DNA of 64,000 nt, from positions 1-64,000 of the forward strand of contig NZ_JAAKDT010000005.1 of the NCBI RefSeq assembly GCF_011038785.1. The letters run 5' to 3'. Positions 21,637 through 29,712 of the stretch are shown here, piece after piece. Every line of letters starts with the position of its first letter. The stretch's first letter is position 1. The position numbers were made by a program, and so were the translations under genes. Source of the DNA: Parabacteroides sp. ZJ-118 (GTDB lineage: Bacteria; Bacteroidota; Bacteroidia; Bacteroidales; Tannerellaceae). The notes beneath the pieces were generated by a model. It was given only the letters and a program-made list of their open reading frames with translations. It was not told the origin of the DNA and did not search any database.

Positions 21637-21670
21637 TAATTGACAATTGGTAATGGACAATTGACAACTG
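21637..21670. repeat. Heptad repeat, copy in the dapA leader
   Basis: Units of TTGACAA and TGGACAA type, here somewhat degenerate (AATTGACAATTGGTAATGG, then ACAATTGACAA). It fills the space directly before the dapA start codon, where a ribosome-binding region would be. Confidence 0.75.
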
Positions 21671-21715
21671 CTTGGTGCCAATTGCCGATAGTGGCGCAAA
21701 AATAAGGAATTTATA

Positions 21716-22231
21716 TCATTTTGAACGTATCGCCCGCAAATAAAATAATATATGTTCAAACAAACGTCCGATATCTTCACGCACTGTTAGCGATATGGAC
21801 AGATCGTACAGGTCGATGCCCTCCTGCTTCGCCCCTACCTTGAACCCGCAGGGATGCTGTAGCATGAGGTATAGCATCGGGTAGCAGCCGGGGCGCGTCA
21901 GGTCGATCAGGATATCCGCCTCGACCGCCTTGAAGCGCTCCAGGAGGGCGTCGGAAGGGAACTGCCAGAGGCTCACGTCTCGCTTGGCATGGACCGCGAG
22001 GCAGGAGGAGTCGGGCTCCGGGCCGCCGGTCACGTAGACACACGTCTCGACCGCCTGGCCCCCCTCGCGCAGGCGGGCCAAGCAGGGCTCGACCCGCGCG
22101 GCGTCGGCCGCCTCGTAAAGGACCAGGACGCGGCGGGCGTCGTCCAGCGGGCGGGAGGCATGCCGGCGTCCGGCCGCCAAGGCCGCCAGGGCGCACACCC
22201 GCTTCTTGATGAAATAATCCGTCAGCCTCAT
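21716..22231 (-). CDS. Conserved Bacteroidales protein of unknown function (DUF6913-like)
   Basis: A 171-residue protein without recognised catalytic motifs. It starts [16 protein letters not shown] and has a Rossmann-like alternation ([36 protein letters not shown], then [11 protein letters not shown] and YDLSISLT). Bacteroidales genomes often carry such a gene beside ligA or dapA; I believe it is the DUF6913 family but could not check. Its ATG overlaps the ligA stop by 4 bases (ATGA), so translation is coupled to ligA. It is very G+C-rich, like ligA. Confidence 0.65.
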
Positions 22232-24228
22232 TCCGCTATTAGGTTTAAAAATTCCTCCTCATGGATGATCCTCACACCCAGCCTCGCCGCCTTCTCCAGC
22301 TTGGCCGGCCCCATGTTCTCGCCGGCCAGGATATAGTCGGTCTTCCCGGAGACGGAGCCGCTGTTCTTCCCGCCGTGCCGCTCGATCATCGCCTTGTACT
22401 CATCGCGCGAGTGGCGGGCGAAGGTCCCGCTGATCACGATCGTCAATCCTTTCAACCGCTCGGAGCGGTCTGCCAGCCGCTCCTCGGAGACCGCCATCCG
22501 CAGGCCTTGTTCCTTTAACCGGCTTACCAACGTACGGTTCTTCTCGTCCGAGAAGTAGCGCGACACGCTTTGGGCGATCCGCTCGCCGATCTCGTCCACG
22601 GCTACCAAATCCGCGGGGGAGGCCTGCGCCAGCGCCTCGATCGAGTGGAAGGCCGCAGCCAGCCGCTTCGCGACCGTCTCGCCCACGAAACGGATCCCCA
22701 GGGCGTAGAGCACCCGCTCGAAGGGGACTTGCCGGGATTCCTCCAGGCTCGCCATCAGGTTGCGGGCGCTCTTCTCCGCCCAGCGCTCCAGGCGCGACAG
22801 ATCCGCCACCGTCAATGTATATAGGTCTGCCGCGTCTTTCACGTAGCCGGCGTCGTACAGATCCTCCACCGTCTCCGGGCCGATATTGATGTTCATCGCC
22901 TTGCGGGTCACGAAATGCACGATGCGCCCCTTGATCTGGGGCGGACAGCCCGACTCGTTCGGGCAGTAGTGCGCCGCCTCCCCCTCGAGGCGTACCAGCG
23001 GCGTACCGCACTCGGGGCAGGAGCGGACGAAACGCACCTTGTCGCCCGCTAGCAAGCCACGCGCCTCGATGTCGACCCCGACGATCTTCGGGATGATCTC
23101 GCCGCCCTTCTCCACGTACACCCGGTCGCCCAGGTGCAGGTCGAGCCCTTCGATGATATCGGCATTGTGGAGCGACGCCCGCTTGACGGTCGTCCCCGCC
23201 AGCAAGACCGGCTCCAGGTTGGCCACCGGCGTGACCGCCCCCGTCCGTCCCACCTGGAAGGAGACCGAGTTGAGCCGCGTCGCGGCCCGCTCCGCCTGAA
23301 ACTTGTAGGCGATCGCCCAGCGCGGGCTCTTCGCCGTGAACCCCAAGTGGCGCTGCTGGCGCAGCGAGTTCACCTTCAAGACGATCCCGTCCGTCGCCAC
23401 CGGCAGGTTCTTGCGTTCCACATCCCAATAGGCGATATAGTCATAAATCTCCTCCAAGCTGCGGCACAGGCGGATCACGCCGGGGATCTTGAACCCCCAC
23501 GCACGGGCCGCCTCCAAGTTGTCGTAGTGAGTCTCCGCCGGCAGCTCCTCCCCCAACAGGTAGTAGAAGTAGGCATCCAGCTTGCGCGCCGCCACCACCG
23601 CCGGGCTCTGCTGCTTGAGCGTGCCCGAGGCGGCGTTGCGCGGGTTGGCGAAGAGCGGCTCCTCCTGCTCCTCCCGCTCCCGGTTCAGGCGGTCGAACTC
23701 CGCCCAGGGGAGCAGGATCTCCCCCCTCACCTCGAAGGCCGCGGGGAAACCTGAGCCCCAGAGCCGTAACGGGACCGAGCGGATGGTCTTCACGTTGGCC
23801 GTCACATCGTCGCCGCGGGTCCCGTCGCCGCGGGTCACGGCACGGATGAGGCGTCCCCCCTCGTAGGTGAGCGAGATGGAGGTACCGTCGTACTTCAGCT
23901 CGGCGACGATCTCGAACGGCTCGTTCAGGTCGCGGGCGACGCGCGTGTAAAAATCCCTCACCTCCTCCTCCGAGTAGGTATTGCCCAGCGAGAGCATCGG
24001 ATATTTGTGGACGACTTGCTCGAACGCTCTCGAGAGGTCGCTCCCCACCCGCCGGGTCGGCGAATCCGGGTCGGCCAGCTCGGGGTGCGCCGCCTCCAGC
24101 TCCTGCAGCTCCCTCATCATCCGGTCGAACTCGAAGTCTGATATCGTCGGCGCCGAGAGCACGTAGTAATTGTAATTGTGTTGTTCCAGCGCCTCGCGCA
24201 ATGTTTTGATTCTGTTTTCTACTTCCAT
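22228..24228 (-). CDS. ligA: NAD-dependent DNA ligase
   Basis: A 666-residue replicative ligase that seals nicks using NAD. From the chosen start ([16 protein letters not shown]) it has domain Ia (HNYNYYVL and [11 protein letters not shown]), the adenylation motif with nucleophile K112 in [10 protein letters not shown], the OB fold, a four-cysteine zinc site (CPECGTPL and CPNESGCP), helix-hairpin-helix repeats and a C-terminal BRCT domain ([19 protein letters not shown]). An open frame 156 bp longer at the 5' end translates intergenic hairpins and is rejected. It is one of the most G+C-rich genes here. Confidence 0.95.
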
Positions 24229-24237
24229 AAGCTTTGA

Positions 24238-24255
24238 AAAAATTGATAATTGACC
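24238..24255. repeat. Heptad repeat, weak copy in the ligA leader
   Basis: AAAAATTGATAATTGACC, about one and a half degenerate units, 10 bases before the ligA start codon. Confidence 0.4.
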
Positions 24256-24289
24256 GGCAAGACGCCAAAAGGCCTCGGAAATCTTGCCG
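24255..24289 (-). promoter_or_regulatory. Stem-loop between the PCMD gene and ligA
   Basis: CGGCAAGA (24255-24262) pairs with TCTTGCCG (24282-24289), an 8-bp perfect stem. In the leftward direction a short T run follows about 10 bases later (24235-24240), so it may be an intrinsic terminator for the PCMD gene. Confidence 0.45.
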
Positions 24290-24301
24290 ACAGGTGTCGC
24301 G

Positions 24302-28067: not shown

Positions 28068-28108
28068 TATTATTATTTTATTCGTTCTACATACTATCAG
28101 CATCTCTT

Positions 28109-28134
28109 GAATTGTCCATTGTCAATTGTCCATT
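28109..28134. repeat. Heptad repeat between cysD and cysN
   Basis: GAATTGTCCATTGTCAATTG then TCCATT, directly after the cysD stop codon; three and a half units. Confidence 0.85.
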
Positions 28135-29042
28135 CAAAAATAGCCTTCCCGTTTCTTCTGCTCCATGCTCGCGTCTTGGTCGAAATCGATCACGCGGGTC
28201 GTGCGCTCGCTCTTGGTAGTGGTCATCATCTCCTCCACGATCTTCTCGATCGTGTCCGCCCCGCTCTCCACGGCGCCGGTCAGCGGCCAGCAACCCAACG
28301 TGCGGAAGCGGACCCTACGCATCTCGATCCGGTCGCGATACTGCTCCGGCAAGCGGTCGTCGTCCGCCATGATCAGGTTGCCGTCGATCTCCACGCAGGG
28401 GCGCTCCTTGGCGAAATACAACGGTACGATGGGGATCTTCTCCAGGCGGATATATTGCCAGACATCCAGCTCCGTCCAGTTCGATAGCGGGAACACGCGG
28501 ATGCTCTCCCCCTTGTGGACACGGGCGTTGTAGATGTCCCACAACTCCGGGCGCTGGTTCTTCGGGTCCCACTGGTGGAACTTGTCGCGAAACGAGAAGA
28601 TGCGTTCTTTCGCCCGGCTCTTCTCCTCGTCGCGGCGGGCGCCTCCGAAGGCGGCGTCGAACTTGTGTTTATCCAAGGCTTGCAGCAGCGCCTGCGTCTT
28701 CATCAGGTCGGTATGCACCTTGCTGCCGTGCGTGAAGGGACCTACGCCCGCGCGGAAGGCCTCCTCGTTGGACTCCACGATCAGGTTCCATCCGAACCGC
28801 TTCGCGTAGCTGTCGCGGAACTGTATCATCTCCTTGAACTTCCATCGGGAATCGATGTGCATCAGGGGGAAAGGGACCTTACCCGGAGCGAAAGCCTTCT
28901 CGGCCAGACGGACCATCACGGAAGAATCCTTCCCGATGGAATAGAGCATAACCGGATTCTCGAACTCGGCGGCTACCTCCCGGATGATGTGGATAGACTC
29001 GGCCTCCAGCTCCTGCAAATGACTTAACTTGTAATCGGACAT
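28134..29042 (-). CDS. cysD: Sulfate adenylyltransferase subunit 2
   Basis: CysD, 302 residues, the catalytic ATP-sulfurylase subunit of the PP-loop type. The loop [10 protein letters not shown] lies at 34-43; other landmarks are [43 protein letters not shown] and the C-terminal [12 protein letters not shown] with [10 protein letters not shown]. It forms APS from sulfate and ATP together with CysN. It starts 8 bp after cysC and is followed by cysN after a 66-bp gap holding a heptad repeat. Confidence 0.96.
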
Positions 29043-29050
29043 ATCTTTTT

Positions 29051-29662
29051 TCAGTGTTTGATTTCTACTTTCGGTACGATCAACTCCAGCAACCGGCTCA
29101 CGGATCGCTCCACGCTCAACAGGGAGGTATCCAGCGTCAGGTCGGGATGCGGGGGCGCGTCGAACGGGGCGGAAACCCCGGTAAACTCCTTGATCTCGCC
29201 CCGGCGTGCCTTCGCGTACAGGCCTTTCACGTCACGCCGCTCGCACTCTTCGATCGGGGTGCTGACATAGACCTCCAGGAAGTTCTCCCTCCCGATGATG
29301 GCCGCCGCCATCTCCCTCAACTCGTCGTTCGGGCTGATGAAAGCCGCTAGGGTGATCACACCCGTATCGACAAACAGTTTGCCCACCTCGGCGATCCGGC
29401 GGATGTTCTCCACCCGGTCCTCCGGCGAGAAGCCGAGATTATTGTTGATCCCGCTACGGATATTATCCCCGTCGAGGACGCGGCAGAGCAATCCCCGTTT
29501 ATGCAACTCGCGCTCCAGGGCGACAGCGATCGTACTCTTCCCCGAGCCACTCAGCCCGGTAAACCATACCATCAAGCCCCTTTGCCCCAAAAGCGCCTCT
29601 TTCTCCTTTCTCCCCATCATCCTATCAAAAATAGGATAAATATTATTCAGTCTTTCTTCCAT
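29051..29662 (-). CDS. cysC: Adenylylsulfate kinase
   Basis: CysC phosphorylates APS to PAPS, the sulfate donor. The 203-residue protein has the P-loop GLSGSGKS at 36-43, [16 protein letters not shown], the [11 protein letters not shown] segment and the [20 protein letters not shown] substrate region. A start codon two codons further upstream (29668) is equally possible. A separate CysC beside CysDN and a sulfotransferase points to PAPS use for sulfate transfer. No PAPS or APS reductase is nearby. Confidence 0.95.
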
Positions 29663-29679
29663 TATCAATCATCATCTTT

Positions 29680-29712
29680 AATTGTCAATTGTCCATTGTC
29701 AATTGTCCATTG
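29680..29712. repeat. Heptad repeat between the permease gene and cysC
   Basis: AATTGTCAATTGTCCATTG then TCAATTGTCCATTG: four and a half units, one base beyond the permease stop codon. Confidence 0.88.

Follow-up and report, generated by a model that had tools for sequence, protein, structure and literature searches.

We analysed a 64,000-nt stretch of Parabacteroides sp. ZJ-118 (NCBI RefSeq assembly GCF_011038785.1, contig NZ_JAAKDT010000005.1, positions 1 to 64,000; hereafter, the window), in which tandem arrays of a 7-bp unit cluster in the sulfation/ligA block. These heptad arrays are probably the arms of palindromic hairpin insertion elements of the intervening sequence (IVS)/S23 type, mostly decayed to single arms; the intact element would be the form without an open reading frame (ORF) of a larger, S23-bearing element. 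We observed the architecture of the elements, a strict polarity, empty and filled sites among relatives, in-frame insertion, mostly matched end units, and, in two relatives, an S23 element whose arms have the window's unit. The arrays are not junction signals, because half of those in the window lie in reading frames and a further copy lies in frame in carB.

The inverted pair was characterized in ten genomes of the same genus, picked for repeat richness, with overlapping matches counted. The pattern (GACAATKGACAAT)-5..35-(ATTGTCMATTGTC), that is, (AATKGAC)n–spacer–(GTCMATT)n, gave 193 matches, and the opposite order gave none. Among the loci examined, neighbouring arms within 120 bp comprised 53 distinct +/- arrangements, no -/+, three ++ and six --. 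The arm units begin AATTGAC or AATGGAC, arm length is 32 or 33 nt (4.5 heptads) in 62 of 106 cases, and the median element length is 82 bp (48 elements with a spacer of at most 30 nt). The spacer consensus is not strong; its commonest hexamer, CGACAA, occurs in 8 of 60. The predicted RNA hairpins of the elements in cysN and carB reach -43.1 kcal/mol (z -7.7) and -45.9 kcal/mol (z -9.1), and none of 200 shuffles was as stable in either case. Single arms have little folding energy (z -3.3 to +0.7).

In the window, runs of the unit AAT[T/G]GAC with a score of 12 or more were listed, which resulted in ten stretches. They lie in both orientations, as a preliminary description of this DNA had stated. 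Chance runs of that score number 0.42 per window, with a maximum of 2 (first-order Markov sequence, 50 simulations). The earlier description had assigned the arrays to gene gaps and missed the five stretches lying in reading frames (25214, 26665, 26710, 26908 and 28030), four of them in cysN and one in the PCMD gene. Its gap arrays at 21638, 25345, 26481, 28110 and 29680 were recovered, and the one at 24238 is only a near match of 12-14 nt. Hence its statement that every block gap above 50 bp has a copy holds for a strong array in five of the six gaps, the sixth having a weak copy alone. It was right that nothing similar is seen elsewhere, as no two-heptad match lies outside the block in the whole window. 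A gap of about 210 bp just beyond the block (31268-31477) has no array. By Pfam, the gene families of the block are dihydrodipicolinate synthase, DUF6913, NAD-dependent DNA ligase, PCMD, sulfotransferase, CysN-type GTPase, PAPS-reductase family (CysD type), APS kinase, and a citrate/sulfate-type transporter; names such as dapA and cysN derive from these families and the preliminary description. The features are as follows, with G and L numbers being our handles for genomes and loci.

21638..21667, + strand: single imperfect heptad arm, 30 nt, upstream of dapA (array listing and relatives' junctions)
24239..24252, + strand: weak near match before ligA, 12-14 nt, under the array threshold (sequence)
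25214..25250, + strand: heptad arm within the open frame of the PCMD gene (PF13201), N-terminal part
25345..25370, - strand: heptad arm at the sulfotransferase stop codon
26481..26513, + strand: lone heptad arm, about 9 bp before the sulfotransferase start codon
26665..26696, + strand: arm (32 nt) of an intact inverted pair that lies in frame near the cysN end
26697..26709, no strand: 13-nt spacer of the cysN element
26710..26744, - strand: partner arm of the cysN element
26908..26927, - strand: weak heptad stretch in frame in cysN, encoding LSIDNGRL
28030..28043, - strand: short heptad stretch at the cysN N-terminus, aligning with the right arm of the G011 S23 element at the same junction
28044..28109, - strand: probable remnant of an S23 gene 3' end and element tail (alignment to S23 tails)
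28110..28134, - strand: heptad arm at the cysD stop codon, where G011 and G027 have the left arm of their S23 element
29680..29713, - strand: 34-nt heptad arm between the CitMHS/SLC13-type transporter gene, just past its stop, and cysC

The arms at 25214-25250 and 25345-25370 are able to pair (RNA fold z -3.6), and arrays stand at the same N-terminal place of the PCMD gene in G020, G014, G012 and G015. Judged by eye, the array at 25214-25250 encodes the hydrophobic part of a signal-peptide-like N-terminus of the PCMD protein. At 26908-26927, the CysN of relatives without the heptad stretch is shorter by 9 residues. Rfam at the gathering threshold gave no match in 20000-33000.

The gene order from dapA to the transporter is kept in 19 of the 20 genomes compared (in G016, the dapA end is missing from the stretch fetched). 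Ten of these relatives, including G004 and G005, have array-free blocks; G020, G014, G012, G015 and G001 share several array-bearing junctions with the window, and G011, G013, G016, G018 and G027 have some arrays. The dapA junction holds an inverted pair in G012 and G014, a short remnant in G015 and G020, and the downstream arm only in the window and G001. Because this one junction shows a pair, a remnant or a lone arm across relatives, single arms look like decayed pairs.

Outside the block, the source genome (a 3.17-Mb draft in 125 contigs) offers an empty and filled comparison. The genome-wide count that the preliminary description had proposed gave 23 exact 17-mer matches, 19 of them in the block and the other four at one site inside carB, where they form an in-frame inverted pair. 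Compared with G004, every whole 250-base window of 5551-10300 is 90-96% identical except the element's own, at 69%. The empty form of the protein reads SKELHAFDMKGIQRWRINPE-LIRR and the filled form differs; this comparison indicates that target residues were replaced. The adjoining carA carries a similar pair with a different unit. With up to two mismatches allowed, the related units AATTGAG and AATTGAA appear at further places in the source genome, and 5 of 16 such stretches fetched hold a clear inverted pair (L336, L337, L341, L343 and L345). Among the 26 named records carrying a six-heptad pair, 17 are Parabacteroides.

Insertion in frame is recurrent. Of 50 testable pairs, a rule that asks for an open frame of 200 aa or more places 12 in frame (13 less one spurious case, window 25214-25370, upstream of the PCMD gene, which was removed). 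To these the cysN pair is added, which the rule missed owing to a stop within 150 nt. The genes hit at ten loci are the following.

CarB: L101 and L118
CarA: L127
PRA isomerase (PRAI/TrpF): L116
Valyl-tRNA synthetase: L108
Methionine synthase: L112
UvrB/TRCF-type helicase: L107
Mur ligase: L105
HhH-GPD/NUDIX glycosylase: L122
PD-(D/E)XK nuclease, struck twice: L124

The in-frame heptads alter conserved enzymes, among them CarA, CarB, CysN, TrpF, MetH and valyl-tRNA synthetase. In L124 (P. acidifaciens, 2010-2667), two in-frame elements with an identical 15-nt spacer lie about 580 bp apart in one 1020-aa frame of the nuclease. Similar spacers were found in 13 pairs of elements among 60; in ten of these pairs the flanks are related, being orthologues or repeated genes, and in three they are unrelated, namely the two L124 copies, L099 and L116 from different species, and L110 and L119, the last lying near a contig end. 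The L099 spacer core, CGGCAAGCGGTATT, recurs in the source genome (L336) between arms of another unit, AATTGAG, so a spacer can stay the same while the arm unit differs. The suggestion of short mobile repeats in the preliminary description gains support from the empty and filled sites, the in-frame insertions and the three similar-spacer pairs with unrelated flanks.

The link to S23 genes comes from the same junctions. At the cysD-cysN junction of G011 and G027, AATTGAC arms enclose a gene of 117-119 aa, whose product in G011 belongs to PF05635, the 23S rRNA-intervening sequence protein (E 6e-27), and to TIGR02436, the four helix bundle protein. In the transporter-cysC gap of G015, a PF05635 gene (E 1.4e-27) lies between arms of the unit GTTGAAA, and G012 has the same arrangement with a split ORF. 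In the S23-bearing form, a segment of about 350-400 bp with the S23 gene takes the place of the spacer. The PF05635 profile search of the genus gave 24 rows in 16 of 38 genomes, 20 of them over the cut-off, and no match in the source genome. Most S23 genes of the genus are flanked by inverted short-unit arrays, the unit varying between elements and being alike at both ends. Similar inverted heptad arms border most of the S23 genes examined from the phylum and from cyanobacterial and other plasmids, and the unit of an element usually agrees at its two ends. In a sample of 198 genomes of the phylum, 152 have a PF05635 match above the Pfam cut-off. A close solved relative of the S23 protein is 2rld (E 1.8e-43), with five chains in the entry, and a passage of PMC4990558 describes the Xanthomonas S23p as a homopentamer.

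Flank similarity was measured at the genus loci, at 90 phylum loci (the best 30 plus 60 picked from about 150 listed out of a larger number of matches) and at 12 of 25 plasmid matches, from cyanobacteria (8), Treponema, Bernardetia, Monoglobus and Chlorohelix. Three loci scoring under the Pfam cut-off (L164, L165 and L170) were left out, as was L171, which belongs to one split gene with L163, and the larger test used 120 of 122 loci, L215 having no S23 ORF and one other flank being too short. Inverted similarity reached at least the 99th percentile of mismatched flanks at 17 of 20 genus, 8 of 30 best phylum and 9 of 12 plasmid loci; direct-orientation similarity did so at one, one and two loci, respectively. 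Over the 120 loci, inverted flanks exceeded the 99th percentile in 57 cases and the 95th in 87, and direct flanks in 11 and 16. With random placements in nine array-free blocks of the genus as the reference, 96 of the 120 loci lie above the 99th percentile, and 87 with A+T-rich placements. The best flank period is 7 at 88 loci and 8 at 21, compared with 51 and 39 of 1000 random placements. The period tracks the S23 protein tree (81 proteins, few columns), with 7 changes versus 13.1 in shuffles and none of 500 as low; this agreement fits heritable arms and fits plain descent too.

The window itself likely, though not certainly, holds a wrecked S23 element, because the 83-nt cysD-cysN gap (28029-28111) aligns nearly full length with the 3' end of the G011 S23 element at the same junction (score 32; shuffles 17.1, sd 2.0; 0 of 2000 reach it). 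Both the short right arm and the beginning of cysN fall within the aligned part. Of the 20 genus loci, 18 S23 tails were compared in this test and 17 in the 51-nt and protein tests; the three top-scoring tails of the 18 are L168 and L159, both from this junction, plus their sister L158. With the arm excluded, the remaining 51 nt have a score reached by 11 of 1000 shuffles. As controls, the sulfotransferase-PCMD, cysN-sulfotransferase and amylase-transporter gaps showed no match to S23 tails, the PCMD-ligA gap matched weakly (10 of 200 shuffles), and the gap at dapA matched but itself contains heptads.

Two further junctions carry elements of different units in different species. In the gap between a PGDH-type 2-hydroxyacid dehydrogenase and DUF1015 (20 genomes), S23 elements occur in G011 and G033 (GAATTAC, partly GAATTAT) and in G014 (GATTTAT), and the S23 proteins of these three genomes form one group (support 82). 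What stands there is a right arm in G012, a remnant in G020, ten bases in G015 and a different ORF-less pair in G034; in the source genome and six more the gap is 4 to 23 bases long, and in the last six it holds 45 to 196 bases of unlike sequence. At the phosphoglycerate mutase (gpmI) junction, compared in 11 of the 20 genomes with the source genome among the nine left out, S23 elements occur in G033, G034 and G015, ORF-less GATTTAT pairs in G012, G014 and G020, and no gap at all in G001 and G017. Recurrent insertion at tolerated junctions and concerted arm change both fit these patterns. The PGDH-DUF1015 gap of G023, G005 and G004 (L278, L281 and L282) contains a different, G+C-rich palindrome, GTAGAGACGGG...CCCGTCTC, which looks like another repeat family. 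In the 278-nt cysN-sulfotransferase gap of G027 (L148), repeated palindromic units (TAGGCCTACAAAGCTA and similar) are of yet another kind.

The proposed course of events is as follows. The intact element measures about 82 bp and has two arms of about 4.5 heptads each (32-33 nt), one the inverse of the other, parted by a spacer of about 17 nt. Such elements would copy to new sites, probably via a hairpin intermediate, with the S23 protein perhaps helping in trans by acting on its arm repeats. The insertion would replace part of the target sequence, and collapse of the hairpin would later leave mostly single arms. The RNA hairpin should be a substrate of RNase III, by analogy with the Coxiella IVS and the Correia/nemis elements, and cutting of the message in operon gaps may follow as a side effect. 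Transcript processing, which the preliminary description had proposed as a role, would then be a possible consequence, given the predicted stability of the cysN and carB hairpins.

Several points weigh against the insertion-element interpretation. Transposition is inferred and was never observed, and no target-site duplication was established; by eye, TTAA flanks some filled sites on both sides, and the flanks are A+T rich and partly replaced. The protein-level test for an S23 remnant in the window was not significant (723 of 1000 shuffles). Of the 120 S23 loci, 33 stay at or below the 95th percentile of mismatched flanks, only 8 of the 30 best phylum loci reach the 99th, and 11 loci have direct, not inverted, similarity above it. 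G020, with its 340 heptad matches, lacks PF05635, and so does the source genome. The T/G order of paired arms is uncorrelated beyond composition (0.786 vs 0.757; 99 of 1000 shuffles reach the value), so paired arms are not simple copies of each other; exact copying between arms was considered and rejected. The number of S23 genes as the driver of heptad number was also considered, and match counts set against the PF05635 search gave no clear link. To explain the clustering in the source genome, transfer of the entire block from some array-rich relative is possible rather than shown. Identity of the source genome to G004/G005 is 62-95% in 300-base block windows and 89-97% in well-aligned carAB windows outside the element; values of 87 and 92% at two other loci temper this idea.

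Other explanations were weighed on the same evidence. That the repeats tune translation at gene junctions, as the preliminary description had suggested, seems quite improbable. Several arrays do adjoin start or stop codons, and PMC4679880 places most TAACTGA sets of one Beggiatoaceae genome a few nucleotides upstream of start codons. However, the arrays here run in both orientations, pairs keep a strict polarity, the same elements lie inside carB, carA, cysN and other genes, and related species differ by gain or loss at the same junction. Ordinary bidirectional terminators or mRNA-stabilising hairpins, selected at gene ends, would account for the very stable folding of intact pairs and for the several arms beginning at a stop codon. 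The A+T-rich stems, the copies in coding frames of biosynthetic enzymes and the presence of an AATTGAC-type array in at most 6 of 20 relatives in any single block gap make this explanation extremely improbable.

Local replication slippage without a mobile element, another of the earlier suggestions, suits a short A+T-rich unit and the existence of single arms and other arm lengths. In its pure form it is very improbable, given the narrow arm length (62 of 106 at 32-33 nt), the inverted partner in one polarity only (193 vs 0), the S23 gene between matched arms in several phyla and the three similar-spacer cases with unrelated flanks. We give equally little credence to the arrays being pre-existing target sites for S23 insertion, lying outside the element. 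The same junctions are indeed struck by different-unit elements in different species, but a direct array would give flanks of the same orientation, whereas the flanks are mostly inverted (57 vs 11 of 120 above the 99th percentile) and ORF-less pairs share the same geometry.

Beyond the genus, we propose tentatively, at somewhat less than an even chance, that S23/IVP genes are the cores of cross-phylum mobile elements. Instead of a fixed sequence, each element would have at its ends its own short tandem repeats, with a unit of 7 (sometimes 8-9) nt that changes in step in the two arms; their ORF-less forms would spread in trans, and the S23 protein would read the arm repeats; the orphan heptanucleotide repeats of Bacteroidota, cyanobacteria and Beggiatoaceae would then be arms. 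If true, this would join those orphan repeats, the S23/IVP protein family and in-frame palindromic insertions, and the role of the S23 protein would become directly testable as binding and mobility.

Some observations lie beside this subject. On plasmids, S23 genes or matches lie between cas2 and cas1 (Nostoc, Anabaena) and between hsdS and hsdR (Monoglobus), at L210, L211 and L215; the flanking repeats of L211 and L215 are not clearly inverted, and these placements may affect the reading of other operons. A weak match, L170 (G024:C555), is a bAvd protein (PF22296) whose gene neighbours that of a reverse transcriptase (PF00078), an arrangement known from diversity-generating retroelements (DGR). 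The bAvd protein is the DGR relative of the S23 family, and one branch of the fold works with reverse transcriptase. In the window, 38677-38950 is a tandem array with a 41-bp unit (6.7 copies, 96% match), unrelated to the heptads.

The preliminary description knew of no named family, which overlooks the 23S rRNA IVS with an S23 ORF, the Rickettsia palindromic elements (RPE) and heptamer repeats such as TAACTGA. As in the 23S rRNA IVS, the complementary borders form a stem in the heptad pairs, and an S23p (PF05635) ORF is present in G011, G027 and G015, split in G012, and represented in the source genome only by a probable remnant. Unlike it, the window copies lie in or between protein genes, in frame in enzymes, and not in rRNA genes. 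In Coxiella burnetii, according to passages of PMC4990558, the 23S IVS has tandem GACAGAT heptamers upstream of the S23 ORF, their number varying by strain, and is a selfish element with complementary borders excised by RNase III; the heptamers there give an independent hint in favour of the insertion-element interpretation. Here, both arms are heptad arrays, the ORF-less form is the commoner, and RNase III cleavage is presumed by analogy. Like RPE, as portrayed in part of a review (PMC10969869), the elements are palindromes in frame in unrelated metabolic genes, and that part treats such insertions as a Rickettsia speciality. RPE are about 150 bp long, in ten families, with a conserved peptide (same source), whereas the present elements are about 82 bp long, heptad-built, varied in spacer, tied to S23 and found in Bacteroidota.

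The TAACTGA direct repeats, in sections of MacGregor 2015 (PMC4679880), occupy gaps and some ORFs, as the heptads do here, in five Bacteroidetes, cyanobacteria and Beggiatoaceae, and two close Cyanothece strains differ mostly by 7-nt steps. The unit here is AAT[T/G]GAC, with other units elsewhere, and those repeats are described as direct, most of them close to start codons, a single indirect one being noted in the BOGUAY genome; the sections covered contain neither inverted pairing nor an S23 gene (PMC4679880). Repetitive extragenic palindromes (REP) with their RAYT genes carry a GTAG or CGTC tag at the palindrome foot; the arm units read here begin AATTGAC or AATGGAC. Cyanobacterial short tandemly repeated heptanucleotides (STRR) are intergenic 7-nt tandem repeats. 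The arrays resemble them in being 7-nt tandems, and the cyanobacterial S23 loci covered here are eight, all on plasmids.

Like miniature inverted-repeat transposable elements (MITEs) such as nemis/Correia and BrickBuilt of Porphyromonas, as described in parts of PMC10969869 and PMC4596501, the elements are short and non-autonomous, with terminal inverted repeats; RNase III cleavage is reported for Correia-type elements in the former. They differ in having no established target duplication and in termini that are short tandem repeats and not a fixed sequence. Their full form carries S23, with no known transposase identified (no other ORF was sought between the arms). BrickBuilt, in the account of PMC4596501, is a 23-nt minisatellite between small inverted ends and strictly intergenic. 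Four helix bundle genes are merely listed in the relevant portions of PMC5524665 and PMC8700078, and the open PMC literature (no preprints and few subscription papers) yielded no paper tying matched inverted heptad arms, or ORF-less heptad hairpins, to S23 genes generally. S23-ORF IVS elements, RPE, MITEs and heptamer repeats are already known, and the tie of matched inverted heptad arms and ORF-less hairpins to S23 genes would be a variation on them.

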